A stretch of DNA of 64,000 nucleotides, from contig MELF01000004.1 in the NCBI GenBank assembly GCA_001767525.1, positions 1 through 64,000 on the forward strand, read 5' to 3'. The position numbers and the translations under genes are program-made. Within the stretch, counting starts at the first letter, position 1, and the number at the start of each line of letters is the position of its first letter. The stretch is from Acidobacteria bacterium RIFCSPLOWO2_12_FULL_68_19. Lineage in GTDB: Bacteria; Acidobacteriota; Vicinamibacteria; Vicinamibacterales; UBA2999. Positions 11,311 to 60,622 of the stretch are shown piece after piece. The notes under the pieces were generated by a model. The model was not told the origin of the DNA and made no database searches. It saw only the letters and a program-made list of their open reading frames with translations.

Positions 11311-11388
11311 GACTCCCAATTTTCAACTCCCAATTCCCAAGACCCGGTACCCATCGCCTTGGGAGTTGGAGGCTTGGGCGTTGGAAGC
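11311..11388. repeat. Word-repeat inverted element, family TTGGGAGT/TTGGGCG
   Basis: Left arm gactcccaattttcaactcccaattcccaag, right arm cttgggagttggaggcttgggcgttggaag. Confidence 0.85.
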
Positions 11389-11405
11389 TGACGAGCTCGC
11401 TGCCT

Positions 11406-12551
11406 CTACGCAAGACCCGCGCCGCCCGGCGCCCGCGCCGCCACCTCGAGTATCGCGTCGGCCGCCCGCTCACTCGCGCCAGGACCGCCAAGGCGTTCGC
11501 GCACCTCCCGGAGCGCCGCTCGCGTGCGCAGGTGACGATCCGTGTCGGTCAGCAGCGCGACGGCTTCACCGGCGATCCGTTCCGGCGTGCAGTCGTCTTG
11601 AATCAGTTCGGGAACGATGCGCCGCCCCGCCACCAGATTCGGCATGGCGTAGGTGTCCACCGTGAGAAACGGCTTGCCGAGACGGTACGTCAGCGGCGAC
11701 ACCCGATAGACGACCACCATCGGCCGCTCGTGGAGCGCCGCCTGCACCGTCGCGGTGCCGGATGCCGTGATGACCACGTCGGAGGAGGCGAGCACGTTGT
11801 CGGTCGCCCCGGCGACGACAACGGCCCCGGCGCCAGAGAGCGGCGCGAACAGGCCGTCGGAAAGATTCGGCGCCCGCGCCACGACGAACTGCGCCTCCTT
11901 GACCCGCGTCCGAACGAGCGCCACGGCTGCCGCCATCACCGGCGCCAGGCGCCGGAGCTCGTTCGGCCGGCTGCCCGGGAGCAGCGCCACCGTCGGCGCG
12001 TCCGGCCGGAGGCCGCGGTCCTGCAGGAAGGCGCCTCTTGCCTGGCTGACCTGCGCGAGATCGACGAGCGGGTGACCGACCAACTGCACCGGGATGCCCG
12101 CCCGCTCGTAGAACGGCGCCTCGAACGGAAAGATCACCAGGACGCGATCGACCAGCCGCCTCATCGTCTCCATTCGCCCCGGGCGCCACGCCCAGAGCTG
12201 CGGGCTGACGTAGTAGACGACGGGCACGCCGAGGCGCCGCAGCGCCGCCATGAGACGAAAATTGAAATCGGGGAAGTCAATCGCGACAAAGACGTCCGGC
12301 CGCCGGGCGCGCGCCGCGGCGACCAGCCGACGGTACATCGCGTACGAGCGCGGCAGCACCCGGATGGCCTCGGTCAGGCCGGTCACGGTCAGGCCGGTGA
12401 ACTCGCCCGCGAGCGACGCGCCAGCCGCCTCGAGCCGCCGGCCACCGAAGCCGACGATGTCCACATCCGGCGCGCGCGCGCGCAGCGCCGCCGCCAGCGC
12501 GCCGGCGTACAGGTCGCCGGACGCCTCGCCGCACGAGATCATGATCCGCAT
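11406..12551 (-). CDS. lpxB: Lipid-A-disaccharide synthase
   Basis: MRIMISCGEASGDLYAGAL..., LLPGSRPNELRRLAPVM. Confidence 0.93.
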   Translation of the reverse strand: MRIMISCGEASGDLYAGALAAALRARAPDVDIVGFGGRRLEAAGASLAGEFTGLTVTGLTEAIRVLPRSYAMYRRLVAAARARRPDVFVAIDFPDFNFRLMAALRRLGVPVVYYVSPQLWAWRPGRMETMRRLVDRVLVIFPFEAPFYERAGIPVQLVGHPLVDLAQVSQARGAFLQDRGLRPDAPTVALLPGSRPNELRRLAPVMAAAVALVRTRVKEAQFVVARAPNLSDGLFAPLSGAGAVVVAGATDNVLASSDVVITASGTATVQAALHERPMVVVYRVSPLTYRLGKPFLTVDTYAMPNLVAGRRIVPELIQDDCTPERIAGEAVALLTDTDRHLRTRAALREVRERLGGPGASERAADAILEVAARAPGGAGLA

Positions 12552-12558
12552 CTCGACG

Positions 12559-14319
12559 TCAGAGCGGCTGATCGACCAGCTTCTCGTCGATGCGTGTCTT
12601 GAAGGTGACGCTCTTGATCCGGCGCTCGATGACGAGGCGGCCGTTCGACAGGCCCGAGGCGTTCTTCCGTCCCTTCGGCACGTTCACGCGCGGGTTCCCC
12701 TGGGTCTGCCCGTGGGTGAGACGCCCCGAACGGACCCGTCCGAACGGTCCCGACGGCCCAAACGGCCCGAACGAATCAGCGCGCCGTGTGTCGCGTTTGA
12801 GCGTCGCCGACATCAGATCGAGCTCCTCGATCGGGATGACCTCGACGTCGGTGAAGCCGAGGCGCTGGAGCTGCGGCACGAACGCCGCGGCGTTGCCGAC
12901 GAGCACGATCGAGAGCCGGTCGGGCCGCACGTACTGGCGGGCGACGCGCTGGATGTCGTCGGGCCGGACCGCCTGCACGCGCTCGCGGAACGTCCCAATC
13001 TCCTCGACCGGCAGGTCGTAGAAGACGACGTTCAGCACCTGGGCGGCGATGTCGCCGGGCGTCTCGATCGTCAGCGGAAAGCTGCCCGCCAGATACGCCT
13101 GCGCGTCGGAGAGCTCGTTCTGCGAGACCCGGTCGCGCTGGAGCCGCGAGAACTCCTCCACCATGAGCCGCAGCGCCTCGCCCGTCGTATCCGTTCGCGT
13201 GTCGGTCTCGGCCACGACATGGCCGGCTTGTTTCCGCGCCTCCGTGTCGGCCTGCGCGCCGTAGGTGAGGCCGCGCTCGGACCGAAGCACCCGGTGGAGC
13301 CGGTTGGCGCCCTCGCCGCCCAGAATCTTCACGGCCAGGTCGAAGGCCATGTAGTCGTCGTGCTTGCGCGGAATCGCGAGCTGGCCGATGCGAATCTCCG
13401 TCTGCACGGCGTCGGGCTTGTCCACGATCACGATCCGGCGGGTCAGCGGCGGCGGCTCGACGACGGTGACCGGCGGGACCTCGGCGGGCGGCCATTCGCC
13501 GAAGGCGCGCTCGGCCGCCGCGAACGCCTGCTCGCTCGTGACGTCGCCCACGATGGCCAGAATCATGTTGTTCGGCACGAAGTAGCGGCGGTGGAACTGC
13601 TGGAGGTCGCCGCGGGTGATCGCGGAGAGCGTCTCCGGGGTGCCGCTGTTCGGCAGCCCGTAGGGGTGGAACCCGTACACGAGTCGCTCGAACAGGACGC
13701 TCGCGACCCAGTCCGGATCGTTGCCGCTGACCTGCAGGCTCGAGATCGCCTGCTGCTTCTGCCGCTCGATCTCCTCGGCGGCGAACGCCGGATTCCGCGC
13801 CACGTCGGCCAGCAGGTTCATGCCGACGTCGAAGGAATCCTCCATGACGACGACGTTGACGAACGTGAGGTCCGAGCCCGACCCGGTGGCCAGCGCGCCG
13901 CCGATGAAATCGATGTTCTCGGCGATCGCCTGCGCGCTCCTGGTGACCGTGCCCTGATCGAGGAGCGAGGCCGCCAGGCTCGCCACGCCCACCTTGCCCG
14001 GCGGATCCTGCACCGATCCGGCCCGCACCAGCAGCCGCATGCTGACGGCCGGCTGTTCGTGGTGGAGGACGGTGATGACCTGCAGGCCGTTCGGCAGCAT
14101 CCGCACCTCGTAGGGCGGGAACTTGACGCTTCGCGCCTGGAGCGGCCGCGGCGGCGACTCGGCGGGCCAGAAGACGAACCGCCCATCGGAGGTCCGCTCG
14201 AGCTGTGCGCTCGCCGCGCTCACGCACAGGACAACTCCCAAGACGCCAACTCCCAACTTCCAAAGGGATTGGCAGCGCACCGGTTGGGCGTTGGGCGTTG
14301 GGCGTTGGGCGTTGCTCAT
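12559..14319 (-). CDS. M16 family peptidase-like protein lacking the zinc motif (non-catalytic partner)
   Basis: ATG 14319 overlaps the upstream TGA (ATGA); M16 fold sequence with SLAASLLDQGT where HxxEH is expected. Confidence 0.88.
   Translation of the reverse strand: MSNAQRPTPNAQPVRCQSLWKLGVGVLGVVLCVSAASAQLERTSDGRFVFWPAESPPRPLQARSVKFPPYEVRMLPNGLQVITVLHHEQPAVSMRLLVRAGSVQDPPGKVGVASLAASLLDQGTVTRSAQAIAENIDFIGGALATGSGSDLTFVNVVVMEDSFDVGMNLLADVARNPAFAAEEIERQKQQAISSLQVSGNDPDWVASVLFERLVYGFHPYGLPNSGTPETLSAITRGDLQQFHRRYFVPNNMILAIVGDVTSEQAFAAAERAFGEWPPAEVPPVTVVEPPPLTRRIVIVDKPDAVQTEIRIGQLAIPRKHDDYMAFDLAVKILGGEGANRLHRVLRSERGLTYGAQADTEARKQAGHVVAETDTRTDTTGEALRLMVEEFSRLQRDRVSQNELSDAQAYLAGSFPLTIETPGDIAAQVLNVVFYDLPVEEIGTFRERVQAVRPDDIQRVARQYVRPDRLSIVLVGNAAAFVPQLQRLGFTDVEVIPIEELDLMSATLKRDTRRADSFGPFGPSGPFGRVRSGRLTHGQTQGNPRVNVPKGRKNASGLSNGRLVIERRIKSVTFKTRIDEKLVDQPL
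14231..14314. repeat. Word-repeat inverted element, family TTGGGAGT/TTGGGCG, lying inside the signal peptide coding region
   Basis: acaactcccaagacgccaactcccaacttccaaag ... ggttgggcgttgggcgttgggcgttgggcgttg. Confidence 0.88.
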
Positions 14320-15665: not shown

Positions 15666-15763
15666 ATGCGCAGATTATGGCAGGAGGCGCGCGCAGCGCG
15701 GCAAAAAAGGCGCGGGCCGACCAGTCGAGGCTCTCCCGTCGCTGCACGGGAGTCGGTGGCCGG

Positions 15764-16615
15764 TCACCGGCCGACCAGCCTGAACCCGACGCTCACCCAG
15801 GAGCCGGTCCCGAATTCGAGCTGGTACGGGTCGATCCGCCGCTCCGCGCCCACGAACAGCTCGACAGCCGCGCCGCGCCCCTCCAGTCGAACGCCGCCTT
15901 CGCCGCCGACTCCATACTGCGTGCCGCGGTCGCGCGACCCGTCGACGCCCAGCACACGAACACCGCCGCCGGCGATGACGGCGGTCCGCGCGGCCACGCC
16001 CACGCGCCCGCGCGCTCGGGCGTCGACCTCCCACACGTAGTCGACGAACGACCGCTGCACGGCGCGCCGCACATCGACCCGAGTGTCGAGCGTCGTCCGG
16101 CCGCGGACCACCGCGCCCTGCACGCGGGCGCCAACCATGTTCCAGTCCACGGCCTGCCGTTTGGGGCGATCGCTCAGGTGCCGGGACACGTGATGGAACA
16201 CCCCTCCGAGCTCCACGCCGCGAGCCCGCGCGGAGAGTGCGCCCTCGAGCGTGTAGTTCCCCTGGTTGGGGTCGAACGGGCGGTACTGCTCCCCAAGCAT
16301 CGCCTGATATTCGGCCGCAAACGCCGCACGGCCGCGCCCGAAGTCGACCAAATCGATCTCGCCGCCGAACCGCGCGTCCCACACGAACCGGGGGTCGTCG
16401 CTGACGAGGTGATCGAGGCCCAGGACGAAGTCGAAGCGCGGCAGGAACTGGACGCCAGTCGTCCCGGCCGCCTGGGGTGCGGGAGCCGCCGTCTGCGCGG
16501 CCGCCGGGCCAGCGGCCACGCCACAGGCCACAGAGACCCAGAGACACAGAGAGAGACTCTGTCGTCTTGCTCTGTGTCTCCGCGCCTCTGTGGCCCATTG
16601 ACATGCGCCTCTCAC
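15764..16615 (-). CDS. Secreted/outer-membrane hypothetical protein (DUF1207-like impression)
   Basis: GTG 16615 overlaps the lpxD stop (GTGA); RRHRARRQSLSLCLWVSVACGVAAGPAAAQ signal peptide. Confidence 0.65.
   Translation of the reverse strand: MRGACQWATEARRHRARRQSLSLCLWVSVACGVAAGPAAAQTAAPAPQAAGTTGVQFLPRFDFVLGLDHLVSDDPRFVWDARFGGEIDLVDFGRGRAAFAAEYQAMLGEQYRPFDPNQGNYTLEGALSARARGVELGGVFHHVSRHLSDRPKRQAVDWNMVGARVQGAVVRGRTTLDTRVDVRRAVQRSFVDYVWEVDARARGRVGVAARTAVIAGGGVRVLGVDGSRDRGTQYGVGGEGGVRLEGRGAAVELFVGAERRIDPYQLEFGTGSWVSVGFRLVGR
16521..16595. repeat. Word-repeat inverted element, family CACAGAGAC/GTCTCTGTG, inside signal peptide coding region
   Basis: ccacaggccacagagacccagagacacagagagagactct ... 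ctctgtgtctccgcgcctctgtggcc. Confidence 0.85.
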
Positions 16616-17652: not shown

Positions 17653-17661
17653 CGCGCCGCC

Positions 17662-18375: not shown

Positions 18376-18673
18376 AAGTGCGATGGTGCGACGGTGCGAG
18401 GGTGCGAGGGTGCGTCCGACGGTGCGAAAGTGCAACGGTGCCAGGGTATCAGGGTCCGACAGTGCCAAGACCCGACGACGGTGCCAAAGTGGGAACGACA
18501 ACCCAGGGTGCGTGCGACGGTGCAACGAAGCGTCCGACGCGCTGGGGAGATGCGCGGGTGCAGGACTGTGCACCGTCGCACCCGCACCGTCGCACCCGCA
18601 CCGTCGCACCGTCGCACCGTCGGACGCACCCTCGCACCCTCGCACCCTCGCACCCTCGCACCCTCGCACCCTC
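18376..18673. repeat. Word-repeat inverted element, family GGTGCGAC/G with GGTGCGTCCGA variant words
   Basis: ggtgcgacggtgcgagggtgcgagggtgcgtccgacggtgcga on the left, cgcaccgtcgcaccgtcggacgcaccctcgcaccc on the right. Confidence 0.93.
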
Positions 18674-23149: not shown

Positions 23150-23242
23150 GCAACTCTCAAGATCCAACTCCCAACCCCCAATAGACCCCACCTTCGACTC
23201 CTGCATCGCGTTGGGAATTGGGCTGTGGGAGTTGGGCGTTGA
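23150..23242. repeat. Word-repeat inverted element, family TTGGGAGT/TTGGGCG
   Basis: caactctcaagatccaactcccaaccccca ... gttgggaattgggctgtgggagttgggcgttg. Confidence 0.87.
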
Positions 23243-23247
23243 CTGCT

Positions 23248-39136: not shown

Positions 39137-40342
39137 ATGACTGGCCTCCCGACGAGCCCCGGAGACGCGACGGCACGGAGCGTGACCACGAGTCTCCCTG
39201 TCGCCGTGTCGCTGTGGCTCGTGCTCGCCGTGCTCGCCACGAGCGTCGTCCTCACGGCGCAGGATCCTGAACGCGCGCGGACCGAGGCGCAGGCGCGCCG
39301 CGTCGACGACCGGATCCGCGCGCTGCAGAGCGAAGCGGACCGATTGGCCGGGGAGGCGCGCACGCTGCTCGGCGAGCTCCGGGCGCTCGAAGTCGAGCAG
39401 CAACTCCAGACCGAGCGCGTGAGCGAGGCGCAGGCCGCCCTCGAGCGCGGGCGCGCGGCGGTGGACGAGGCGACGGCGAGGCTCGACGGGCTGGAGCGGC
39501 AGCGTCTCGCCCAGTTGCCGGACCTCGAGGCGCAGCTCGTCGACATCTACAAGCGGGGGCGCACCGGCTACGCCAAGCTCCTCTTCGGCACGACCAGCGC
39601 GCGCGAGTTCGGCCGCGCGCTGCGCGCGGTGGCGGCGCTGATGCACATCAACGAAGGACGCGTGGCGGAGCACCGCCGCACGCTCGACGAGCTGCGCCGC
39701 CAGCGTGCGGCGCTCGAGGAAGAGCTGCGCGCGATCGAGTCGCGGGACGCCGAGGCGCGGCGCGTGCGCGCCGCCGCCGACCGGGCGCTCGCCGCGCGCG
39801 CCCGGCTGCTCGCGCAGCTCGACAGCCGCCGAGACTTGACCGCGCAGCTCGCCGGAGAGCTTCAGCTCGCCCATGATCGACTCCAGCAGCAGGTCACGGC
39901 ACTCTCCGCGGGCCGCCCGGTCGAACCGGTCGCCGTTCCGGTGGCGCCGTTTCGTGGGGCGCTCGAATGGCCGGTCTCCGGCCAGGTGCTCGTCCCGTTC
40001 GGGAGCACGTCTGGCCGCCCCGGCGACAGCGCCGGGAGGAACGGCATCGAGATCGCCGCCCCGGCGGGCACGCCCGTGCATGCGGTGCATCCGGGCACGA
40101 TCTCGTACGCCGAGCCGTTCGGAGGATTCGGCAACCTCGTGATCGTCGATCACGGGGCGAACACGTACACCGTGTACGGGTACCTCGACACGATCACGAT
40201 GGCCAGCGGCACCCCTGTCGACGCCGGCGCCGAACTCGGCCGCGTCGGGTCGGCGCCGGCGGGGCCGCCGGCGCTCTATTTCGAGGTGCGCGTCGACGGT
40301 CGATCGGTCGATCCCATACAATGGTTGAGACCTAGCCGGTAG
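39137..40342 (+). CDS. EnvC-like coiled-coil protein with degenerate LytM/M23 domain
   Basis: Long coiled coil then NGIEIAAPAGTPVHAVHPGTISYAEPFGGFGNLVIVDHGANTYTVYGYL. Confidence 0.85.
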   Translation: MTGLPTSPGDATARSVTTSLPVAVSLWLVLAVLATSVVLTAQDPERARTEAQARRVDDRIRALQSEADRLAGEARTLLGELRALEVEQQLQTERVSEAQAALERGRAAVDEATARLDGLERQRLAQLPDLEAQLVDIYKRGRTGYAKLLFGTTSAREFGRALRAVAALMHINEGRVAEHRRTLDELRRQRAALEEELRAIESRDAEARRVRAAADRALAARARLLAQLDSRRDLTAQLAGELQLAHDRLQQQVTALSAGRPVEPVAVPVAPFRGALEWPVSGQVLVPFGSTSGRPGDSAGRNGIEIAAPAGTPVHAVHPGTISYAEPFGGFGNLVIVDHGANTYTVYGYLDTITMASGTPVDAGAELGRVGSAPAGPPALYFEVRVDGRSVDPIQWLRPSR

Positions 40343-40432
40343 GTGGTAGCCGGTAGGTGGTAGCCGGTAGGTGGTAGCCGGTAGGTGCTGTAGCGATACA
40401 AACCCCGCTACCGGCTACCGGCTACCGGCTGG
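40335..40432. repeat. Word-repeat inverted element, family GGTAGCC/GGTAGGT
   Basis: agccggtaggtggtagccggtaggtggtagccggtaggtggtagccggtaggt ... gctaccggctaccggctaccggct. Confidence 0.95.
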
Positions 40433-41734: not shown

Positions 41735-41738
41735 TTTG

Positions 41739-41817
41739 AGGCTTTCGGCTTTGGGCTATAGGCTTTGGTCTTGGCCACGGCCCAGAGCCCGGAGCCCAGA
41801 GCCTAAAGCCTAGAGCC
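41739..41817. repeat. Word-repeat inverted element, family GGCTTTGG/AGAGCC
   Basis: gaggctttcggctttgggctataggctttggtcttggcc ... ggcccagagcccggagcccagagcctaaagcctagagcc. Confidence 0.9.
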
Positions 41818-41831
41818 ATCCCTCGCATTTC

Positions 41832-43799
41832 ATGAGCGACGTCACGATTACACTTCCAGACGGCTCGACCCGTGCCGTCCCGGCGGGCACGCCCGCCCGC
41901 GACGTCGCCGCGGCGATCTCTCCGCGCCTGGCGAGAGCGGCGCTTGCGGCCGCGGTCGACGATCGGCTGGTGGATCTCTCCTTCCGCCTCGATCGCGACG
42001 CGAGGCTCCGCCTCGTCACGGCCGAGAGCCCGGAAGCGCTGCAGCTGTACCGGCACAGCACGGCGCACCTGCTCGCGGCTGCCGTGACGCAACTCTTCCC
42101 CGGCGCGCAGTGCGGCATCGGTCCCGCCATCGATGAAGGCTTCTTCTACGACTTCGTCGTCGCCCGTCCGTTCGTACCGGAGGATCTCGAGACCATCGAG
42201 CGGAAGATGCGGGAGCTCGCGCAGCAGGACCTTCCCTACGATCGACAGCTGTGGCCGCGAGAGGAGGCGAAGCGCTTCTTCGCCGAACGCGGCGAGCCGC
42301 TGAAGGTGCAGCTCATCGAGGAGAAGACCGAGGAGCAGTCCGAGGTCTCGTGCTACACGATCAAGGACCGCGACACGTTCGTCGACTTCTGCGTCGGGCC
42401 GCACGTTCCCTCGACCGGGCGGCTCAAGGCGTTCAAGCTGCTCGCCGCCTCGAACGCCTACTGGAAGGGGGACGCGCGCAATCAGCCGATGCAGCGGATC
42501 TACGGCACCGCGTTCTTCTCGGAGAAGGAGCTGCAGGCGCACCTGCACCGGCTGGAGGAGGCCAAGAAGCGCGACCACCGGAAGATCGGCCGTGAGCAGA
42601 AGCTGTTCATGTTCCATCCGTGGGCGCCCGGCGCGACCTTCTGGCTCGCCAAGGGGACTGCGCTCTGGAACACGCTGGCCGACTACATGCGCGGCGTGCT
42701 GTTCCCGGCGGGGTACGTCGAGGTCAGGAGCCCGCTCGTCTTCAACAAGGCGCTTTGGGAGACGTCGGGGCACTGGCAGCACTACCGCCAGAACATGTTT
42801 CTCGTGCAGGAGGGGGCCGACGGCGAGCAGCTGGCGCTGAAGGCGATGAATTGCCCGGGCCATTTCCTGATGTACGCGAGCGAGGTGCGGAGCTACCGGG
42901 ACCTGCCGATTCGGTTCCACGAGCAGACGCCCCTGCACCGCAACGAGGCGTCGGGCGTGCTGTCGGGCCTCACGCGGGTCCGGCAGCTCAGTCAGGACGA
43001 CGCGCACTGCTTCGTGATGGAGTCGCAGATGGCCGAAGAGGTGGAGCGGCTGCTCCGCCTCATGCAGCGCGTCTATGGCGATTTCGGCCTGGAGTACTCC
43101 GTCCGGCTGTCGACGCGCCCGGAGGAGCACCTCGGCACGATTGAGACGTGGACCCAGGCCGAAGCGTCGCTGAAGCAGGCGCTCGACCTCGCGCGGCAGG
43201 CGTACACGGTCGACGAGGGCGACGGCGCCTTCTACGGACCGAAGATCGACGTCGACGTCACCGACGCCATCGGCCGGAAGTGGCAGTGCGCCACGTTCCA
43301 GCTCGACTACCAGATGCCGGAGCGCTTCGACCTGACGTACATCGGCGCCGACAACACGGCGCACCGGCCGGTCGTCATTCACCGGGCCATCTTCGGCAGT
43401 TTCGAGCGCTTCATCGCGCTCCTCGTCGAGCACTTCGCCGGCGCGTGGCCGCTGTGGGTCGCACCCGTCCAGGCGGTAGTCCTGCCGATTGCCGACCGCC
43501 ACCTGGCGTACGCGGGGGCGGTCCGCGACCGGCTCGCGGCAGCCGGGCTTCGGGCGGAGCTCGACGAGCGCCAGGAGAAGATTGGCTATAAGATCCGGGA
43601 GGCGCAGTTGCAGAAGGTCCCCTACATGCTCGTGACGGGGGACCGCGAGGCCGCAGACGGTACCGTCTCCGTGCGGAGCCGGTCGGGCGGTGATCTCGGG
43701 CCACGAGCCGTGGAGGCGTTCATCGCGGACGCGCTCGCGGAGATCCAGCGGAAGGACCTGGGCGCGCCGGCGCCCGTTGGCGAGAACCAGCCGGCCTGA
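41832..43799 (+). CDS. thrS: Threonyl-tRNA synthetase
   Basis: TGS domain; HSTAHLLAAAV, MNCPGHFLMY, FYGPKIDVDVTDAIGRKWQCATFQLD. Confidence 0.96.
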   Translation: MSDVTITLPDGSTRAVPAGTPARDVAAAISPRLARAALAAAVDDRLVDLSFRLDRDARLRLVTAESPEALQLYRHSTAHLLAAAVTQLFPGAQCGIGPAIDEGFFYDFVVARPFVPEDLETIERKMRELAQQDLPYDRQLWPREEAKRFFAERGEPLKVQLIEEKTEEQSEVSCYTIKDRDTFVDFCVGPHVPSTGRLKAFKLLAASNAYWKGDARNQPMQRIYGTAFFSEKELQAHLHRLEEAKKRDHRKIGREQKLFMFHPWAPGATFWLAKGTALWNTLADYMRGVLFPAGYVEVRSPLVFNKALWETSGHWQHYRQNMFLVQEGADGEQLALKAMNCPGHFLMYASEVRSYRDLPIRFHEQTPLHRNEASGVLSGLTRVRQLSQDDAHCFVMESQMAEEVERLLRLMQRVYGDFGLEYSVRLSTRPEEHLGTIETWTQAEASLKQALDLARQAYTVDEGDGAFYGPKIDVDVTDAIGRKWQCATFQLDYQMPERFDLTYIGADNTAHRPVVIHRAIFGSFERFIALLVEHFAGAWPLWVAPVQAVVLPIADRHLAYAGAVRDRLAAAGLRAELDERQEKIGYKIREAQLQKVPYMLVTGDREAADGTVSVRSRSGGDLGPRAVEAFIADALAEIQRKDLGAPAPVGENQPA

Positions 43800-44410: not shown

Positions 44411-44467
44411 GGCGTTGGGCGTCAGGCTCTTGGCTGTGGCCAAGCCCAACGCCCGAAGCCCAGCGCC
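44411..44467. repeat. Short word-repeat inverted element (GCGTTGGGC...GCCCAACGC)
   Basis: ggcgttgggcgtcaggctcttggctgtgg / ccaagcccaacgcccgaagcccagcgcc. Confidence 0.8.
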
Positions 44468-44477
44468 ACAAGGACAT

Positions 44478-46208: not shown

Positions 46209-48265
46209 GAGCCCTGCTCTCCTGGCTGCGTGAGTTCGTCGACGTCCCCGGCACGGCGGAGGAGGTCGCGCGCCTCATGTCGCTGCGCGGCTTCGCCGTC
46301 GAGGCGATCGAGCCGTTCGGCCCAGGCGATACGGTCATCGATTTCGAGGTCACCGCGAACCGCCCGGACTGCATGTCGATGGCCGGCATGGCGCGCGAGG
46401 TGGCGGCGGCGCACGGGCTGCGGCTGCGCACACCCGGTCCGCCACCGGCGGCGGCGCGGCCGCCGCGGACCCCGGCCCGCGTGCGCCGGAAGGGGCCAGC
46501 CGTCCTCGACATCGTCATCGAGAATCCCGGTCTCTGCCCGCGCTACGTCGGCGCGGTCGCAGACGTCGAGGTTGGCCCATCGCCTCCGTGGATGCAGACG
46601 CGCCTGCAGGCGGCCGGCATCCGCCCCATCAACAACATCGTCGACGTCACCAATTACGTGATGGTCGAGATGGGCCAGCCGATGCACGCCTTCGATCATG
46701 CGCGGCTGGCGGGCGCCGAGATCCGCATCCGCACGGCCCGCCCCGGCGAGACCCTGCGAACCCTCGACGGCCAGCCGCGGACGCTCTCGCCGGACATGCT
46801 CGCCATCGCCGACGCCGAGCGCGCGACAGCGGTCGCCGGGGTGATGGGCGGCGGCGACTCCGAGGTGACGCCTGCGACGAAGACGATTGTGCTCGAGAGC
46901 GCCTACTTCGACCCGCTGTCGATCCGCCGCACCAGCAAGACACTGGGGCTGAAGACGGATGCGAGCATGCGGTTCGAGCGGGGCGCCGACCCGGGATGTC
47001 CCGCGGCCGCCATGGCGCGCGCCCTGGAGCTCATCGAGCGGATTGGCGCCGGCCGCGGCCGCGGCGCGCTCATCGATCGGTATCCGAAACGGATGAAGCC
47101 GGTCGTCCTGCGCCTGCGCCGGGAGAGGATCGCCGGGCTGCTCGGCTGCCCGATCCCCGATCGCGACGTGAAGCGGATTCTCGATCGCCTCGGCTTCACG
47201 CTGGGGGTGGTCGCGGGCGGGTGGCGCGTCGTGGTTCCGTCCCGGCGGGTGGACGTGACGCGCGAAGTGGATCTCATCGAAGAGGTCGCGCGGCACTACG
47301 GCTTCGATCGCCTGCCGACCACGTTTCCCGCGCTGACGGCCGCGGCGCCCCCGATCGATCCCCGGATCGCCCGCGCCCGTCACCTGCGCGAGCTGCTCAC
47401 CGCGGCCGGATTCTTCGAGGCGGTGACCTTCGGATTCGTTGCCGAGCGCGCGGCGGCGCCGTTCGCCGCCGGCGGCGATCTCGTGCCGATCGCCAATCCG
47501 CTGTCGGAGCTGTTCGCCGTGCTGCGGCCGTCGTTGTTGCCGGGACTGGTCGATGCCGTGGCGCACAACCGCCGGCGCGAACAGCGCGACATCCGGCTGT
47601 TCGAGATCGGCGCGCGATTCACCCAGCGCGGCGGCGAGCGCCTGGCGCTCGCCTGCGTCTGGACCGGCGCAGCGGCGCCGGAGCACTGGAGCGGCACGGG
47701 ACGGCCGGTCGACTTCTTCGATGCCAAGGCGGTCGTCGAGCGCGTCGGTCAGGCGCTCGGCGCTGAAGTCCGGACCACCCCGTCGCAGGAACCCTGGCTC
47801 GCGCCGGGACGGAGCGCGGCCGTGATGGCAAACGGCGCGCGTGCGGGAGTCGTCGGACAGCTTGCCGACACCCTCGTCGACGCGCACGGGCTGCCGCGCA
47901 GCGACGCGGTATACGCGGTCGAACTGGACCTGGACGCGCTGGCGCCGCTCGCAGGACGTGTCGTCCGCGTCGAGCCGCTGCCGCGCTACCCCTCGGTGAC
48001 GCGCGACATCTCCATCCTGATCGACGACACGCTGCCGGCCTCCGACGTCCGCCGAACCATCGGTGGTGCCGCACCGCCGACCCTCGTGCAGGTCGCCGAG
48101 TTCGACCGCTACCAGGGCAAGGGCATTTCACCCGGGAAAGTCAGTCTGTCGTTGCGACTGACTTTCCGGTCATCTGACAGAACTCTCACCGACGGCGAAG
48201 TCCAGTCGGCCATGGACGACGTACTCGCCGCGTTGAAGGAGGCGCACGGCGCGGTGCAGCGGTAG
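46205..48265 (+). CDS. pheT: Phenylalanyl-tRNA synthetase beta subunit
   Basis: NRPDCMSMAGMAREVAA; NNIVDVTNYVMVEMGQPMHAFD; C-terminal FDX-ACB domain; GTG start. Confidence 0.96.
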   Translation: MRALLSWLREFVDVPGTAEEVARLMSLRGFAVEAIEPFGPGDTVIDFEVTANRPDCMSMAGMAREVAAAHGLRLRTPGPPPAAARPPRTPARVRRKGPAVLDIVIENPGLCPRYVGAVADVEVGPSPPWMQTRLQAAGIRPINNIVDVTNYVMVEMGQPMHAFDHARLAGAEIRIRTARPGETLRTLDGQPRTLSPDMLAIADAERATAVAGVMGGGDSEVTPATKTIVLESAYFDPLSIRRTSKTLGLKTDASMRFERGADPGCPAAAMARALELIERIGAGRGRGALIDRYPKRMKPVVLRLRRERIAGLLGCPIPDRDVKRILDRLGFTLGVVAGGWRVVVPSRRVDVTREVDLIEEVARHYGFDRLPTTFPALTAAAPPIDPRIARARHLRELLTAAGFFEAVTFGFVAERAAAPFAAGGDLVPIANPLSELFAVLRPSLLPGLVDAVAHNRRREQRDIRLFEIGARFTQRGGERLALACVWTGAAAPEHWSGTGRPVDFFDAKAVVERVGQALGAEVRTTPSQEPWLAPGRSAAVMANGARAGVVGQLADTLVDAHGLPRSDAVYAVELDLDALAPLAGRVVRVEPLPRYPSVTRDISILIDDTLPASDVRRTIGGAAPPTLVQVAEFDRYQGKGISPGKVSLSLRLTFRSSDRTLTDGEVQSAMDDVLAALKEAHGAVQR
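48135..48167. repeat. Perfect 12-bp inverted repeat with 9-nt loop inside pheT
   Basis: GGAAAGTCAGTC-tgtcgttgc-GACTGACTTTCC. Confidence 0.85.
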
Positions 48266-48284
48266 GTGGTAGGTGGTAGGCAGT
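48261..48284 (+). repeat. Single-arm GGTAGGT word repeat at the pheT 3' end
   Basis: agcggtaggtggtaggtggtaggcag; the pheT stop TAG lies inside it. Confidence 0.75.
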
Positions 48285-48347
48285 CGTCAGTGTCGTGTTA
48301 CCATTTCCCCGGCAGCGTTCCCCTTCCAGAGACGCGAGGCAGCACGG

Positions 48348-49317: not shown

Positions 49318-50349
49318 TTGCAGACCACCATCTCCGACCTCGGCGAACGCGCGCTCATCGAGCGCATCACGGCGCGGCTGGCCACGCCCCCGTGGGTGGT
49401 GGTTGGTCCCGGCGACGATGCGGCGGTGGTCGAGCCGGAGCGCGGCGCCCTCGACGTCTTCACGACCGACGTCCAGGTCGAAGGCGTGCATTTCGACCGC
49501 CGGTTCGTGGCACCCGATGCGATCGGCCACCGGGCGCTCGCGGTGAACCTGAGCGACCTGGCGGCCATGGGCGCGCGACCGCGCGCGGCGCTGCTCTCCC
49601 TCGTGCTGCCGGACGCACTCGACCTCGACACGATCGACCAGCTCATGGGCGGGCTGCTCGCGGTGGCCGACGCCCACCGCGTCGCGGTCGTCGGCGGCAA
49701 CATCTCCCGCTCGCCGGGACCGCTCGTCGTCGATGTGACCGCGATCGGCTCCGTGCGGCGCCGCCGGGTGCTGACCCGGTCGGGCGCGCGGGCCGGCGAT
49801 GGAGTCTATGTCACCGGCACGATCGGAGACGCGCGTGTTGGTCTGGAGTCGCTCCAGCGCAGGGCGGACGTGAACGGCCACCCTGCCGCAGTCGCTGCAC
49901 GAGCCGACACGCAGGTCGGTCCGCAAGAACAGCGGTACCTGCGTCCCCAACCGCGCGTGCGCGCGGGACTGGCGCTCGCGGGCCACCGCGCCGCGACGGC
50001 GTGCATGGACCTGAGCGACGGACTCGCCGATGCCGTCCGGCAGATCGCCGAGGCGTCCCGTGTTGGCATCGCGCTCGACGCGGCGGCGCTGCCGATCGCC
50101 GACGAGGTCCGGCGCTGGCACGAAGGGCAGCGACGAGATCCCGTCGCCGCCGCCCTCGAGGGTGGCGACGATTACGAGCTGCTCTTCACGTCGCGTCCGA
50201 CCAACCGGGGGCGACTGCGCGGCGCCCAGCGGGCGCTCGGCACCCTGCCGCTCACGCGGATCGGGATCGTCACCAGGGAAAGGCGGCTCGTGGTGACGTC
50301 GGCGGACGGGACGCGCGAGCTGCCCGAAGGCTTCCGGCATTTTCGATGA
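49318..50349 (+). CDS. thiL: Thiamine-monophosphate kinase (TTG start)
   Basis: GDDAAVVEP, TTDVQVEGVHFD, HRALAVNLSDLAAMGARP, MDLSDGLADAV. Confidence 0.92.
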   Translation: MQTTISDLGERALIERITARLATPPWVVVGPGDDAAVVEPERGALDVFTTDVQVEGVHFDRRFVAPDAIGHRALAVNLSDLAAMGARPRAALLSLVLPDALDLDTIDQLMGGLLAVADAHRVAVVGGNISRSPGPLVVDVTAIGSVRRRRVLTRSGARAGDGVYVTGTIGDARVGLESLQRRADVNGHPAAVAARADTQVGPQEQRYLRPQPRVRAGLALAGHRAATACMDLSDGLADAVRQIAEASRVGIALDAAALPIADEVRRWHEGQRRDPVAAALEGGDDYELLFTSRPTNRGRLRGAQRALGTLPLTRIGIVTRERRLVVTSADGTRELPEGFRHFR

Positions 50350-51065
50350 TGCGCCACGCCATCTCGCGGTCGCTCTGGCGAAAGCTGGTCGTGACCTCCG
50401 TCGCCGTCGTCGCCTTCGTCTTGCTGTACGAGGTCAGCATGTTCGACTCGCGGCAGGCGGCGCCGCCGGGACCAGTCGATCCGACGCTGCCCGCCGCCGG
50501 CTCGCGCCTGGTCTTCACCGCGACGGCGTACTGCAAGGGACGCACGACGGCGTCCGGCGTAAGCGTGCGGACCGGCATCGCGGCGTCGGACCCGGCCATC
50601 CTGCCGGTGGGGAGCGTCGTGAACATCTCCACCGATACGCCGAAGTACAACGGCGTCTACACCATCATGGATACCGGCCCGAAGGTGCAGGGGCGCGTGC
50701 TCGACATCTACATGGGGAGCTGCCGCGAGGCGGTCGCCTTCGGGCGACGCCCCGTGGAGGTCAGCGTCCTGCGGCTCGGCTGGAACCCGAACGCGAGCAC
50801 GCCGAGTCTCATCGATCGCCTGTTCCGTCGCCGCGAAGCCGCGCGCCGGGCGCCGCCGGCGGCAGCCGACGGTCCCAAGGGCGTCGACGGTGCGGCCGGC
50901 GGGCAGGATGCCTCAGGTGGGACGCAGATCGATGGAACGGCAGAACCTGCCGCACCCTCGCACCTCGCACCCTCGGACGCACCCTCGCACCTCGCACCCT
51001 CGGACGCACCGTCGCACCTCGCACCGTCGCACCTCGCACCCTCATCCCCCCTCTCATCGCCCTGA
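50346..51065 (+). CDS. Membrane-anchored 3D/RlpA-like double-psi beta-barrel protein with repeat-encoded C-terminal tail
   Basis: FTATAYCKGRTTASGVSVRTGIAASDPAILPVGSVVNI...YTIMDTGPKVQGRVLDIYM. Confidence 0.8.
   Translation: MMRHAISRSLWRKLVVTSVAVVAFVLLYEVSMFDSRQAAPPGPVDPTLPAAGSRLVFTATAYCKGRTTASGVSVRTGIAASDPAILPVGSVVNISTDTPKYNGVYTIMDTGPKVQGRVLDIYMGSCREAVAFGRRPVEVSVLRLGWNPNASTPSLIDRLFRRREAARRAPPAAADGPKGVDGAAGGQDASGGTQIDGTAEPAAPSHLAPSDAPSHLAPSDAPSHLAPSHLAPSSPLSSP
50946..51045. repeat. GCACCCTC/GCACCGTC word array (complement of GGTGCGAS family), in-frame in the 3D-domain gene
   Basis: gcaccctcgcacctcgcaccctcggacgcaccctcgcacctcgcaccctcggacgcaccgtcgcacctcgcaccgtcgcacc. Confidence 0.92.
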
Positions 51066-53681: not shown

Positions 53682-53710
53682 TCAGCGTGCTCGGAACCGG
53701 CCCTCGTCGT

Positions 53711-55459: not shown

Positions 55460-55495
55460 CGCTGACAGTATAGTGCCCGGGTCCATGAAGGTCCG

Positions 55496-55684
55496 GTGTC
55501 GATCGGCCGAGACGACTTCGACGTGAAGTTCATCGACGTCGACATCAACGGCACGGTGCTCTTCGGCGCCCACGTGGGCGCCCAGGTCGGCTACCGCTCG
55601 GTCATCGCGGAGTATGCGGTCGACCAGGACACCGGCGACCTGAAGATGCAGGGGCCCTACTTCGGCGGGATCGTCCGGTTCTGA
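55496..55684 (+). pseudogene. Short ORF resembling the C-terminal piece of a surface/outer-membrane protein
   Basis: DDFDVKFIDVDINGTVLFGAHVGAQVGYRSVIAEYAVDQDTGDLKMQGPYFGGIVRF; only 62 aa and no upstream in-frame remainder. Confidence 0.4.
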
Positions 55685-55685
55685 C

Positions 55686-56426
55686 CTACCCGGGTTTCCT
55701 GGCGACAATCAGCAGCGAACTGCCGAACGGCATGGGCACGCGGCGCGCCAGCGCCGCTTCCCCCTTCACGACGCCGGTCAGCACGGCGTTGATCGGCGCC
55801 GGCGGCACCAGCAGATCGACGTCGCCTCGCGGCAGCCGCCAGGCGCTCGCCACCCGCTGCGCGATCCGGACCGCCAGCATCAGCGGCAGGAGCGACGCGA
55901 ACAGGAACGAGGTCCGGACCACGGCCAGGCCCGCCCCTTCGACGAGCCGCGCCGCCCGCGCCGGCGTGTAGCGGCGCAGTTCCCCCCAGACGTCGCTGTG
56001 ATCGCCGCGCATGAAGTCGAGTGCGGTGACGTTCAGCACGACGTGTCCCCGCGGCCTCAGGATGCGCGCGATCTCGGCGAGCGCCCGCCGGTCGTCCGGC
56101 ACGCTCTGCATGACGTCGAACGAGGTCGCCAGATCGAAGGTCCCTGACGCGAAGGGGATGTGCTCCATGTGGGCGCGAACGAGCGGACGCCCGGCCGCGC
56201 GGGCCCGACCTATCGCGTCCATCGTCAGGTCGAAACCGAACGTGCGCCCGTAGGGGGCGAGCAGCATCCGCAGGTTGTAGCCGGTGCCGCACCCGCAGTC
56301 GAGGATGCGCAGATCCCGGCGGCCATCGGCAATCTGCCGAATCGCCGGTGCGACGTACGAGCGAAGGCCGTGGAACCAGAAGTGGATCGGCTCGGCCCGG
56401 GCCGTGAGCTCCAACAGGTCGCCCAT
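55686..56426 (-). CDS. Class I SAM-dependent methyltransferase
   Basis: ILDCGCGTGYNLRMLL, SFDVMQSVPDDRRALAEIARILRPRGHVVLNV. Confidence 0.92.
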   Translation of the reverse strand: MGDLLELTARAEPIHFWFHGLRSYVAPAIRQIADGRRDLRILDCGCGTGYNLRMLLAPYGRTFGFDLTMDAIGRARAAGRPLVRAHMEHIPFASGTFDLATSFDVMQSVPDDRRALAEIARILRPRGHVVLNVTALDFMRGDHSDVWGELRRYTPARAARLVEGAGLAVVRTSFLFASLLPLMLAVRIAQRVASAWRLPRGDVDLLVPPAPINAVLTGVVKGEAALARRVPMPFGSSLLIVARKPG

Positions 56427-56429
56427 GAA

Positions 56430-59150
56430 TCAGCGCGTAGCCGCCGCGGTCGTCAGGTTGGCGCCTCCATACAGCCGCCGGTAGTCGGCGGCGGTGCCGA
56501 GAATCCGTTTCACGTAGCTCTGGGTTTCGGCGAAGGGAATGTCGTCGATGAACTCATCCTGCGCCAGTCCCGGGCGTTCCTCGATCCAGCGTGCGACCCG
56601 GTGCTCGCCAGCGTTGTAGCTGGCCAGCGCGTAGTGCGCGACGCCGAAGCGGTCCATCAAATCCCTGAAGTAGCGCATACCGAGGCGGATGTTCGTGTCC
56701 GGCTGCGTCAGTGCCCGCGTGGAAAAGCGGATCCCGAGCTTGCCCGCGTAGCGCCGCCCGGTCGCCGGAATGAGCTGCATCAGGCCGACGGCGTTGGCCG
56801 AGGACCGGACGTCCGCGGTAAAGGTCGACTCCTGGGCGATGAGCGCCGTCATCAGGAACGGATCAAGCCGGTGCGCGTCGGAGTACTTGCGGATGAGAGG
56901 CCAGTAATCGAGCGGGAAGATCACGCGCTGGATGTCCGCCGGCAGCCGCTCGCCTCCGGCCGCCATGAACTGCGGGTAGGCACGGCGCATGAGCGTGACG
57001 GCGCCGCGCACGTCGGCAAAGCGATCGACGGCGCCAGGCTGCAGCCCCCGGCGGTGGCGAATCCAGGCGGAGGTGGCCTGCAGCGCCGCTGAATCCCCCC
57101 AGAGCTTCCGGGCGTATTCCACCTCGTCGAGCGCCGCGTCGTACAGCTCGAGCGTGACGAGCGCGCGAATGACCGCGTCGGTCGGCACGAGCGGCCCGGG
57201 CCCTGCGCCCGGATCCGTTCGCACGACCGGCTCGACTGGCGCCGCCTTGCGCTCGGAGAGAATCGCCGACGCCAGACGGCCGTAGTACGAGTTCAGGTAA
57301 TCGGCGGCGACGACGCGATAGAGCGTCGCGGCGCCGGCACGCTCATCCAGCCGGTCGCGCGACCGGGCGGCCCAGTAGAGCCACGCGGGCCGGTAGTCGG
57401 CGCGCGGAAACGTCGCGGCGGCCAGCTCGAAGGTATGCGCCGCGTCCTTGTACTGCCCCTGTCTGTACGCCCGCCAGCCAACCTTCCACGCCGCCCGATC
57501 CGTATAGCGTCCCCACGGGAAGCGCCGCATGATCTCCCGCAGCACCTGGTCAGCCGCCTCCTCGTCTTCCAGCCGGATGTAGAAGGACGCGAGGTCGTTG
57601 AGCGCCTCCTCCGCCCAGGTGCTCTCAGGATAGTCGGCGACGAGCTCGCGTACGAGCGGCACGTAGCCCGCGTGGTCGCCGAGCCCGCGTGTGGCGGAGA
57701 GGGACCAGAACCGCGCCTCCGCCGCGCGCGACGGGCTCTTCAGGTACGGGCGCAGCCCGTCCAGCGAGGCCCGGTGTCGCCCCAGGCGGTAGTCGCACGC
57801 CGCAAGCCGGAGCGCGGCCAGCTCACGCGCCTCCCCTGTCGCTGTCGATGCCAGCCCGGCGTACGCCGGCCGGGCCTGCGCCCACCGGCGCGCATCGAAA
57901 AGGCGCTCGGCGCGATCCAGCTCGAGCCGGACGCGGTCGGGTGGAACGAGCGCGGGCGTCTGCAGCCGCTCGATCGCCTCCTCCGCCGCGGCCGCCTGAG
58001 CGCTCAGCGGGAATTCGTAGTAGACGCGGTGATACGCCCGCAGCGCCCGCGCCGGATCGCCCGCGGCCTCGTAGGTCGAGCCCAGCCGGAGCAACACCTC
58101 CTCGGGCGCCGTCAGCGGCTGGTCGATCAAGGCGTTCAGGACGCCGGCCGCTTCGCGTGCGTCACCGCGGCCGAGCGCCGCCTCCGCCAGTCGCAGCCGC
58201 GCCGCCTCCTGGAGGTGCCCGTCCGTCCTCTTGTCGCCAATCGCGTCCAAGGCCGCCTCCGCGGCCTCGAACTGCTCGAGGCCGAGCAGCGCCACACCGG
58301 TGTAGTAGCGGCCGTAGTCGGAAAGCGGCGTCGCCGCCAGATCGGCGGCTCGCAGCAGCGGAAGCGCGGCGGCAAAGTCCTCCTCCTGGATCAGCCTGAC
58401 GCCGCGGGCAAACTGGACAGTGGGCGACTGGGCCGACCTCCGCGTGGACCGAGGCGCCAGAGCCGCGTCCGGGACGAGCCAGTACAGGGACGGGCGGGCG
58501 GGAACCGGCGGATGGTTGGTCGTCGAAACGGTCGCGGGCTGACCGGCCTCTCCCGCCCGCTGCGCATGCGTGTTGTCGCCTGCGCACAGGACAACGGCCA
58601 GCGCGACGGGGAGTACTCCGATGGCGCGCGTCACTGCGGGCCGACGCCTCCGCACTCCGCCGCCGTTGCTGTCCGCAGCCTGACCTCGGTGCAGTGGCAC
58701 GAGGCCGAGCGCCTTGTGCAACGTCATCGACTCGAGCAGCCGGCCGGCATACCGTGCCAGTGAGTCGAGAGCGGCCGCCGACTCCGGTCGAAGCGGGTCG
58801 GCAGACAGGATGGCGACGACCCTTCCGCCCACTACGATCGGAAACGTCCCGTGGCCGCCTTCGGCTGCCTGGAGCACGTCGGCGCCGGCGCCGCGAAGCG
58901 GCCACGGACGGACGCGCCCCTCGGTGACGAGAAACATCCCCGCGCGCTCGGCGCGTCGTCCCGCCTGATTGAGCAGCGCCCGCAGCACGTCGGCCAGCGA
59001 TACGGCCTCGTCGAGCGCCCGAGTATCCGCGGCGAGGTCGGTCGCGTCGATGATCTCCCGTGCGAGCGCACTCAGGTCACGTTCGAGATCGGCGCGTGCT
59101 CCCGCCAGCGCCCGATCGAGCGCATCGCGAAGACGATCGTCGAATGACAC
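56430..59150 (-). CDS. Lytic transglycosylase (SLT/Slt70-like) with N-terminal GAF-like region and internal TM
   Basis: MTALIAQESTFTADVRSSANAVGLMQLIPATGR...ALASYNAGEHRV; N-terminal GTG 59150 (VSFDDRLRDALDRALAG...). Confidence 0.85.
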   Translation of the reverse strand: MSFDDRLRDALDRALAGARADLERDLSALAREIIDATDLAADTRALDEAVSLADVLRALLNQAGRRAERAGMFLVTEGRVRPWPLRGAGADVLQAAEGGHGTFPIVVGGRVVAILSADPLRPESAAALDSLARYAGRLLESMTLHKALGLVPLHRGQAADSNGGGVRRRRPAVTRAIGVLPVALAVVLCAGDNTHAQRAGEAGQPATVSTTNHPPVPARPSLYWLVPDAALAPRSTRRSAQSPTVQFARGVRLIQEEDFAAALPLLRAADLAATPLSDYGRYYTGVALLGLEQFEAAEAALDAIGDKRTDGHLQEAARLRLAEAALGRGDAREAAGVLNALIDQPLTAPEEVLLRLGSTYEAAGDPARALRAYHRVYYEFPLSAQAAAAEEAIERLQTPALVPPDRVRLELDRAERLFDARRWAQARPAYAGLASTATGEARELAALRLAACDYRLGRHRASLDGLRPYLKSPSRAAEARFWSLSATRGLGDHAGYVPLVRELVADYPESTWAEEALNDLASFYIRLEDEEAADQVLREIMRRFPWGRYTDRAAWKVGWRAYRQGQYKDAAHTFELAAATFPRADYRPAWLYWAARSRDRLDERAGAATLYRVVAADYLNSYYGRLASAILSERKAAPVEPVVRTDPGAGPGPLVPTDAVIRALVTLELYDAALDEVEYARKLWGDSAALQATSAWIRHRRGLQPGAVDRFADVRGAVTLMRRAYPQFMAAGGERLPADIQRVIFPLDYWPLIRKYSDAHRLDPFLMTALIAQESTFTADVRSSANAVGLMQLIPATGRRYAGKLGIRFSTRALTQPDTNIRLGMRYFRDLMDRFGVAHYALASYNAGEHRVARWIEERPGLAQDEFIDDIPFAETQSYVKRILGTAADYRRLYGGANLTTAAATR

Positions 59151-59292
59151 GATGCCGTCATTATACGGCACGGCCACCGCACCGCTGTTGTGGTGCCGGG
59201 GATCGTAGTGCTCATCACTCGTCGAGTGGCGCTGACAGAATCCTGAGAGCTGTCGCGCGCGTGCGTCAGCGTGCGCGGCGTACAATCCGCTC

Positions 59293-59862
59293 GTGCATCG
59301 GAACCGCAGTCGACGCGCGTTCCTGTACGCTGCCCTGGCTGCCGTCCCGTTGACGCGGCGCGCCGTGGCGCAATCGACCGCCGAGCGGCTGATTGCTGCC
59401 ATGCAGGACGGCGGCAAGATCGTGTACCTGCACCACCTGCCGCCAACTGACGCCGCTCAGGCGCGCGAGATCGGCCGCGCGCTCCGTGCGCTCCGGGTGC
59501 CGCTCAACGAGATCCTCGCCAGCCCAGCCGCGCCGGCGCGTGAGACTGCCGAGCTGGCGTTCGGCGCCGACCGCGTGAGTGTGGCGATGGAGCTGGCCGA
59601 TGAGGGAGACCTGGGCGATCGGCCGCCGGCCACGCTCGAGGCGGCGCGGCGGCTGCTGGGCACGAGTCCGGGCCCGGGCATGAACCGCATCCTCGTCGGG
59701 CACCGCGCCCTGCTGGAACTGGCGGCGGAGCGCCGGTTTCCTGCGCCCGTCTTCCCCGACGGCGCAATGGCCGTCTTCCTCCCGGCACCGACGCCGCAGC
59801 TGCTCGGCACGATCACCGCGGACCGGGTCATTGCCTCGGCGAAGGCCCGAGGGGCGATGTAG
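59293..59862 (+). CDS. Secreted histidine-phosphatase-like protein with altered catalytic motif
   Basis: KIVYLHHLPPTDAAQAREIGRALRALRVPLNEILASPAAPARETAELAFG; Tat/Sec-like NRSRRAFLYAALAAVPL leader. Confidence 0.65.
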   Translation: MHRNRSRRAFLYAALAAVPLTRRAVAQSTAERLIAAMQDGGKIVYLHHLPPTDAAQAREIGRALRALRVPLNEILASPAAPARETAELAFGADRVSVAMELADEGDLGDRPPATLEAARRLLGTSPGPGMNRILVGHRALLELAAERRFPAPVFPDGAMAVFLPAPTPQLLGTITADRVIASAKARGAM

Positions 59863-59880
59863 GACGGACGAAAGACTACG

Positions 59881-60050
59881 GGGTGCGACGGTGCGACGGT
59901 GCGACGGTGCGAGGGTGCGTCCGATGCTGCGAGGGTGCGAGGGTGCATCGGACAGTGCGAGGGTGCGACGGTGCATCGGACAGTGCGCGGGTGCGACGGT
60001 GCGTCCGACAGTGCGCGGGTGCGACGGTGCGTCCGACAGTGCGCGGGTGC
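59881..60050. repeat. GGTGCGAC/G word array (left arm) with TCCGACAGTGCG variant words
   Basis: gggtgcgacggtgcgacggtgcgacggtgcgagggtgcgtccgatgctgcgagggtgcg... Confidence 0.93.
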
Positions 60051-60079
60051 CTTGGCCCCGCCCGACCCCGACGTGCCGG

Positions 60080-60500
60080 CGCGCTGTTGCGGACTGAAGG
60101 GCTCTACTCGTCCCATTTGGTGACCTGGCGCCGGCAGCGCGCGCACGGCTTGACGCCGAAGAAGCGGGGCCGCGAGGTGAGGTCGACCGATCCACGCGTG
60201 AAAACGTTGGAGCGGGCGGGCCGAGACGATCATCGCGTTCCAACAACAAGTTGCCGAGCTGCTGGCGGTCGAGACGGCGAGCGTCGCGATGGGCACGGCG
60301 GCCGCACTACGCCGCACCGGAACTGCTGGCCACGCGGCCGAACCACGCCTGGAGCTGGGACATCACCAAGCTATTCGGGCCCGCGCAGTGGACGTACTTC
60401 TATCTGTACGTGATCCTCGACACCTTCAGCCGCTACGTCGTCGCGCCGCACGAGAGCGCGGCGCTCGTCGAGCGCCTCATCGCTAATTCCTTCGTCCTTG
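60080..60500 (+). mobile_element. Degraded IS3-family-like transposase remnant with internal deletions/frameshifts
   Basis: ALLRTEGLYSSHLVTWRRQRAHGLTPKKRGRE (OrfA-like) followed in another frame by PELLATRPNHAWSWDITKLFGPAQWTYFYLYVILDTFSRYVV (rve integrase core). Confidence 0.85.
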
Positions 60501-60523
60501 GTGTCTCAATGTCATTGATAGCG

Positions 60524-60622
60524 CCCGACCGTCGCACCGTCGCACTGTCCGATGCACCGTCGCACCCTCGCACCCTCGGACGCACCATCGCACCCTCGCA
60601 CCCTCGCACCGTCGCACCCTCA
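60524..60622. repeat. CGCACCGT/CGCACCCT word array (right arm, inverted relative to 59881-60050)
   Basis: cgaccgtcgcaccgtcgcactgtccgatgcaccgtcgcaccctcgcaccctcggacgcaccatcgcaccctcgcaccctcgcaccgtcgcaccctca. Confidence 0.93.

Follow-up and report, generated by a model that had tools for sequence, protein, structure and literature searches.

Word-repeat hairpins at gene junctions of an acidobacterial genome: probable gene-less relatives of rRNA intervening sequences

The intervening sequences (IVSs) of ribosomal RNA (rRNA) in Leptospira, Coxiella and Azospirillum are sporadically distributed hairpins that have complementary ends, heptamers in the stem and, in the loop, an open reading frame (ORF) for a four-helix-bundle protein; gene-less forms exist as well. 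The Coxiella IVS carries an S23p ORF and GACAGAT heptamers, whose number varies among strains, and is excised by RNase III (PMC4990558). Candidate Phyla Radiation rRNA insertions come in IVS-protein and ORF-less forms, located mostly at the top or the base of a stem-loop (PMC11270868), and a survey of cas loci reported 18 IVS-protein genes (PMC3936711). Another set of repeats, the intergenic GGGNATC heptamers of Xanthomonas and Nostoc, forms 70–75 inverted pairs per Xanthomonas genome, is rare between divergent genes and was not connected to a gene (Rehm et al., PMC4692102). Here we analyse hairpins with arms made of runs of a degenerate short word, found in a 64,000-nucleotide stretch (hereafter referred to as the window; contig MELF01000004.1, 69% G+C) of Acidobacteria bacterium RIFCSPLOWO2_12_FULL_68_19, the genome of which (the source genome) comprises 4.2 Mb in 52 contigs. 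We consider it probable that the window loci are mostly gene-less copies of short selfish hairpin elements, the full-length form of which has a single small gene in its loop, and that these elements are intergenic relatives of the rRNA IVSs.

Inverted word arms of the IVS kind are present at nine of the eleven window loci for which an earlier note on this DNA had claimed a common hairpin architecture; the remaining two, at 48261 and 50946, are single arrays. The window elements differ from rRNA IVSs in lying between protein genes, in lacking an ORF and in falling into several word families within one genome; RNase III excision, published for Coxiella, would be putative here. No window copy is located in rRNA; only one copy in our set, from Azospirillum lipoferum (L308), lies in a 23S rRNA. 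Because of their location between protein genes, we class the window elements as intergenic relatives and not as IVSs proper. The earlier note had held that no named element class fits. This is true of a full fit, but the rRNA IVSs are a relative named in the literature, and the note did not anticipate that a gene-carrying parent form is identifiable, with a four-helix-bundle/IVS protein or a GxxExxY protein encoded in the loop.

The GGGNATC and GGGGA(C/T)T repeats (PMC4692102) resemble the window elements as intergenic heptamers that form inverted convergent pairs and seldom lie between divergent genes. They differ in that they were treated as G-quadruplex simple repeats with no loop gene linked to them, and in that the window words are others. 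As to G-tracts, GGGGAYT words occur in the relative G015, and several window words (CACAGAG, GGTGCGA) do not have GGG in each unit. CACAGAG-type elements have a loop gene of the GxxExxY family (PDDEXK_3, TIGR04256); the literature found mentions this family only incidentally (PMC8934634) and says nothing of enclosing inverted word repeats. Searches of the open-access literature with the window words, Rokubacteria repeats and S23 plus repeats returned no report joining word repeats, S23/IVS genes and GxxExxY; subscription papers are mostly beyond this coverage, and an earlier report is possible.

Small genes within word-repeat hairpins

All four PF05635/TIGR02436 four-helix-bundle genes of the source genome lie inside word hairpins, the arm words of which are GGTAGCC, GGTTGTC, GTTCAC and, in the fourth case, GTTCAC nested in GGTGCGA. 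The only PF13366/GxxExxY gene of the source genome lies inside a CACAGAG hairpin (L201 6658–7107, that is, G000:C19:6658–7107), and its product has the PD...EVK motif expected for the PD-(D/E)XK superfamily. The four-helix protein matches XCC0516 (2GSC); for the GxxExxY protein, no solved relative was found by sequence.

To evaluate enclosure quantitatively, we took the best ungapped palindrome with arms on either side of the gene, at a score of at least 13, and used position-shifted controls. Across several phyla, 77 of 84 four-helix genes were enclosed, against 10 of 168 shifted controls (p=1e-44). Enclosure was seen for 23/24 genes from the order, 19/21 from family relatives, 23/27 from other phyla and all 12 from named plasmid records, which include Nostoc, Calothrix, Anabaena, Azospirillum and Gemmatirosa. 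GxxExxY genes from several phyla were enclosed in 39 of 54 cases, against 9 of 108 controls (p=9e-17; subsets 19/23, 4/6 for named records, and 16/25). As a second control, 159 small genes of the source genome were used, three of which passed, one being a four-helix gene itself. These p-values are somewhat optimistic, because orthologues were kept in the counts; some loci also share one genome. A loop ORF thus belongs to the element class as a whole, while none of the window copies carries a four-helix ORF. Both reverse transcriptase (RVT_1) genes of the source genome were rejected as candidates, being free of word arms.

The Azospirillum copy L308 lies within an Rfam LSU_rRNA match, and its arms consist of GAGGACG-type heptamers; the classical rRNA IVS is therefore the same kind of object. 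On cyanobacterial plasmids, the four-helix genes L307, L309 and L312 sit in word hairpins between cas genes, which suggests that they are insertions there and do not have a CRISPR function.

Word length differs with the gene enclosed. The best autocorrelation lag was 7 in 40 of 58 four-helix arms and in only 1 of 40 GxxExxY arms (p=3e-12), the latter having lag peaks at 8–10. The words of the window element at 16521 are those of the GxxExxY carrier of the source genome, and the words of the element at 40333 are those of four-helix carriers on contig C3 of the source genome (L037 9496–10138) and on contig C107 of G001, a genome of the same genus. By the word-length rule, the window CACAGAG element is of the GxxExxY type, and the GGTAGCC, GGCTTTG and GTTGGGC elements are of the four-helix type. 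GGTGCGA(C/G), an 8-nt unit, encloses four-helix genes in the source genome, in the relative G004, in two Verrucomicrobia and in one Bacteroidetes genome.

It might be argued that word hairpins came first and served as landing sites, into the loops of which four-helix-bundle or GxxExxY genes were inserted later. Gene-less hairpins do outnumber gene carriers in our data, and one loop contains a fragment of an integrase core (rve). We regard this order of events as unlikely, since it leaves unexplained that word length varies with the gene carried, that four-helix genes of different phyla are flanked by the same words, and that the unit which aligns between unrelated loci consists of arms and gene (see below).

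Several observations weigh against our reading of selfish elements with a gene-carrying parent form. Orthologues, and in part several loci of one genome, are among those counted, so that the enclosure counts are partly non-independent, and detectable arms are missing at 15 of the 54 GxxExxY and 7 of the 84 four-helix genes. The GGTGCGA-armed four-helix gene of the source genome has nested GTTCAC words too. No TTGGGAG/CAACTCC hairpin with a gene was found, and this family has the C-rich arm first, which most carriers do not; for these two reasons it is placed by architecture only. No target duplication was recognised in the flanks inspected, nor was a clean excision site seen, and where the empty site of the source-genome GxxExxY element was sought in G001, there was a 4-kb rearrangement.

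Arms and gene at unrelated loci, and word families across the genome

Arms and gene recur together at unrelated loci. The alignment of L311 (Geminocystis) with L314 (Nostoc) is confined to 1140–1606, that is, to arms and gene, and the surroundings are unrelated. L306 and L312 have arms and gene in common, with secretion genes and cas genes, respectively, as neighbours. L254 and L323 (G001) share arms and a gene 81% identical over 52 amino acids, but not flanks. Conversely, L364 and L378 occupy the same site and encode proteins that are 97% identical, whereas their arms differ in number and words. The loop gene is under purifying selection: two pairs gave reliable dN/dS values, 0.11 and 0.12, and L254/L323, L322/L342 and L328/L333 were left out of the comparison because their frames had apparently been misread.

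We surveyed about 1.0 Mb of the source genome, part of it picked for GGTGCGA, with gene calls from a home-made coding-score finder. Minimum-energy scanning proved uninformative at 69% GC; hairpins were sought by an ungapped palindrome scan. Genome-wide, GGTGCGACGGTGCG occurred in 174 copies (86 on the plus and 88 on the minus strand) and in none in a reversed control. In a set of sequences with a bias to GGTGCGA contigs, the 10-mer GTGCGACGGT was found 141 times, where 2.6 occurrences were expected, and 381 kb of source sequence, window included, held 19 ungapped palindromes scoring at least 16 against one in a third-order Markov simulation. The earlier note's view that related units of several word families are dispersed was borne out. 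Word counting added the families GTTCGTG/GTTCTCG (ends TCGTTCAC, GAAGTGGAAAA) and CACAGAG (ends ACGGGCCACAGAG); in the source genome, ends are conserved in the CACAGAG family and in the GTTCAC family. Words recur in relatives and in other phyla.

Polarity is fixed in the source-genome pairs of each family, the 5′ arm being GGTGCGA, GGTAGCC, GTTCAC, CACAGAG or, for the TTGGGAG family, CAACTCC. Most word pairs fall outside the called genes (99/113 for GGTGCGA and 52/54 for GGTAG), in a sample that is 83% coding. Hairpins lie at median distances of 20–21 nt from the next gene. The gaps that contain them are co-directional in 39 cases, convergent in 15 and divergent in one, the numbers for all gaps of at least 40 nt being 287, 63 and 84; divergent (promoter) gaps are avoided (1/55 versus 84/434, p=4.5e-4).

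Replication slippage might produce such heptamer arrays as simple sequence, which G-quadruplex formation might then preserve, a proposal made for GGGNATC in Xanthomonas and Nostoc. The elements share with those repeats the length of the unit, the intergenic bias and the rarity in divergent gaps, and arm expansion is clear in L364 versus L378. We nevertheless think it quite unlikely that slippage is the whole account, as it leaves unexplained why pairs are inverted with a fixed polarity, why two specific gene families are enclosed and why there are word families without G-runs, such as GTTCGTG and CACAGAG. The L311/L314 alignment suggests joint inheritance of arms and gene at new loci, and the Xanthomonas study itself gives inverted pairs by the dozen.

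Known small mobile repeats were also compared. Repetitive extragenic palindromes (REPs), bacterial interspersed mosaic elements (BIMEs) and REP doublets (REPINs), with their REP-associated tyrosine transposase (RAYT), are likewise many-copy, small, palindromic and intergenic, but their arms are not word-iterated. Miniature inverted-repeat transposable elements (MITEs) share with the window class the existence of non-autonomous copies with the ends of a gene-carrying form. They appear to differ in that neither a fixed terminal inverted repeat length nor a target duplication was seen in the window class, and the parent gene is no known transposase. An ordinary MITE or REPIN moved by a RAYT or an insertion sequence (IS) transposase would fit dispersed palindromes in many copies, with conserved ends in some families (ACGGGCCACAGAG, TCGTTCAC). 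This origin is very unlikely, given that arm length and word vary and that the sole RAYT-type (Y1_Tnp) gene of the source genome (L351 1215–2025, contig C5) adjoins a separate, unrelated palindrome, GGGGTCTGACCC, with hardly any family words nearby; the earlier note had likewise set REP models aside. The L351 gene is bordered by GGGGTCAGACCC/GGGTCTGACCCC palindromes, a motif that is also found in the junction of the relative G015 matching 11311.

Other structures were noted in the source contigs. In composite or nested hairpins, GTTCAC arrays are repeatedly linked by the spacer CCGCACTCTTCATGAATCAGTC (or ...CTATTC...) to arrays of GGTGCGA or GGTAGCC (L044, L045, L037 and L196; contigs C13, C3 and C11); C13 is especially rich in such hairpins. 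At least three copies (L194 8886–9167, L201 12514–12795 and L286 19613–19894) were noted of an element of 282 nt, which has terminal inverted repeats of 34 nt (CTAGGAGCCTGTCCGAGTAATAGCATGGG...) around a loop of 214 nt and looks like a classical MITE. Three candidate 'loops' of about 1.5 kb were rejected as other genes between two elements; the two examined contained host genes.

Window hairpins and their orthologous junctions

Eight window loci were folded as hairpins, with z-scores from −2.3 to −12.5. The TTGGGAG family accounts for 11311–11388 (z −3.1, loop without an ORF), for 23150–23243 (z −3.9), which fills the interval of two minus-strand genes, and, as TTGGGAG/GTTGGGC, for 14231–14310 (z −2.3). 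The last of these overlaps the beginning of the minus-strand gene 12559–(14304), where the open frame reads KLGVGVLGVVLCVSAASAQ and resembles a signal peptide. The CACAGAG-family hairpin at 16521–16597 (8–9 nt words, z −7.4) likewise overlaps the beginning of a minus-strand gene, 15764–(16617), and the peptide there, RRQSLSLCLWVSVACGVAAGPAAAQ, is again signal-peptide-like; one arm corresponds to a charged n-region and the other to a hydrophobic core. A 298-nt GGTGCGA hairpin with a long loop lies at 18376–18673 (z −12.5). The GGTAGCC/GGTAGGT hairpin at 40333–40432 (7-nt words, four-helix-bundle type by the above rule) has a z-score of −4.9, and the GGCTTTG hairpin at 41737–41820 (z −5.4) has a tRNA-like stretch on one side and a gene at 41832 on the other. 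The GTTGGGC hairpin at 44411–44472 (z −3.5) lies in the junction of infC and rpmI, as identified by Pfam.

The ninth hairpin, the large GGTGCGA element at 59881–60621, was scored by palindrome pairing and not by folding (ungapped score 71, loop 555). Its 5′ arm is at 59881–60050 (plus strand) and its 3′ arm, an inverted word array, at 60528–60621 (minus strand). The rve fragment in its loop (60328–60483, plus strand; PF00665, E 1.6e-8) is read as a secondary IS insertion. No hairpin was found at the short plus-strand GGTAGGT array (48259–48285, z +1.2) or at the minus-strand GGTGCGA array (50946–51045, z +2.1), which lies on the 3′ end of the called gene 50346–51065. The short loops and gene-gap locations claimed in the earlier note hold in part: the loops at 18376–18673 and 59881–60621 are long, and not every element is strictly intergenic, because those at 14231 and 16521 overlap gene starts and that at 50946–51045 a gene 3′ end. 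The words are degenerate and contiguous with inverted arms, unlike the identical repeats and unique spacers of a CRISPR array. Elsewhere, the contig start (window 1–68) is a perfect tandem duplication of 34 nt.

Contig C33 of G001 aligns with nearly the whole window, and four other genera align in parts. Presence and absence as well as arm differences among relatives, which the earlier note had proposed to look for, were seen. In G001, the words are similar at 14231, 23150 and 50946 (at the last, GGTGCGA-type words on both strands), there is a remnant at 18376, and the words are different at 44411 (TTTGGTC) and 48261. Its junction alignments revealed no element at 11311, 16521, 40335, 41739 or 59881; the flanking alignments are 93 nt apart in the window and 14 nt in G001 for the 41737 element, and about 785 nt and 8 nt, respectively, for the 59881 element. 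The 16521 element is absent from all five relatives compared. At the 11311 junction, G014 has TTGGGAG/TTGGAAG-type words within a gene start; at 14231, there are hairpins in both G001 and G015, the words of G015 being different (TTTGGGA). The 18376 junction has GGGGAYT words in G015 and no element in G003, G004 or G014, and the 23150 junction has none in G003 and G014. At infC-rpmI, the source genome and G001 each have a hairpin that folds, built from different words.

Rho-independent terminators or attenuators of the ordinary kind would also place hairpins where genes end and would fit their enrichment in gaps of the convergent and co-directional kinds, and one element lies in infC-rpmI, a place with known leaders. 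This is nonetheless the least probable of the readings weighed here: many orthologous junctions have no element, words are replaced wholesale, genes lie in loops, and arms reach 64 nt and more.

A tentative mechanism and its meaning

On our preferred reading of selfish hairpin elements, the full-length loop gene would encode either a four-helix-bundle 'IVS protein', in elements whose arm words are mostly 7 nt long, or a GxxExxY PD-(D/E)XK protein, in elements with 8–10-nt words. The rRNA IVSs would be members that landed in rRNA helices, and the window elements members that landed in gene-gene junctions. An insert may be tolerated in 3′ or intercistronic regions, where its transcript would form a long stem that RNase III could presumably cleave, as it is known to do in rRNA IVSs. 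The loop-encoded protein may act on the word-repeat hairpin, in trans on gene-less copies too, and the elements may transpose to new sites. Arm words would turn over fast via slippage and arm-to-arm copying, which would account for the locus-specific families.

A broader proposal, to which we give slightly less than even credence, is that a single pan-bacterial superfamily of minimal hairpin elements lies behind the rRNA IVSs, the Xanthomonas and Nostoc heptamer repeats and many of the orphan genes for four-helix-bundle and GxxExxY proteins. The encoded protein would recognise word stems, the arms would be rebuilt by arm-to-arm copying, and movement or persistence would be unlike that of any described transposon.

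Two widespread families of proteins with no known function, one of them (the four-helix-bundle IVS protein) a relative of the retroelement protein Avd, gain a physical setting in the loop of a word-repeat hairpin; their substrate is therefore guessable and testable. The reading would give one common account for rRNA IVSs, the unexplained heptamer repeats and the IVS-protein genes reported from cas loci (PMC3936711); these last have the look of insertions, not of Cas functions. The elements also remodel gene junctions, and two window genes get signal-peptide-like coding sequence from them.

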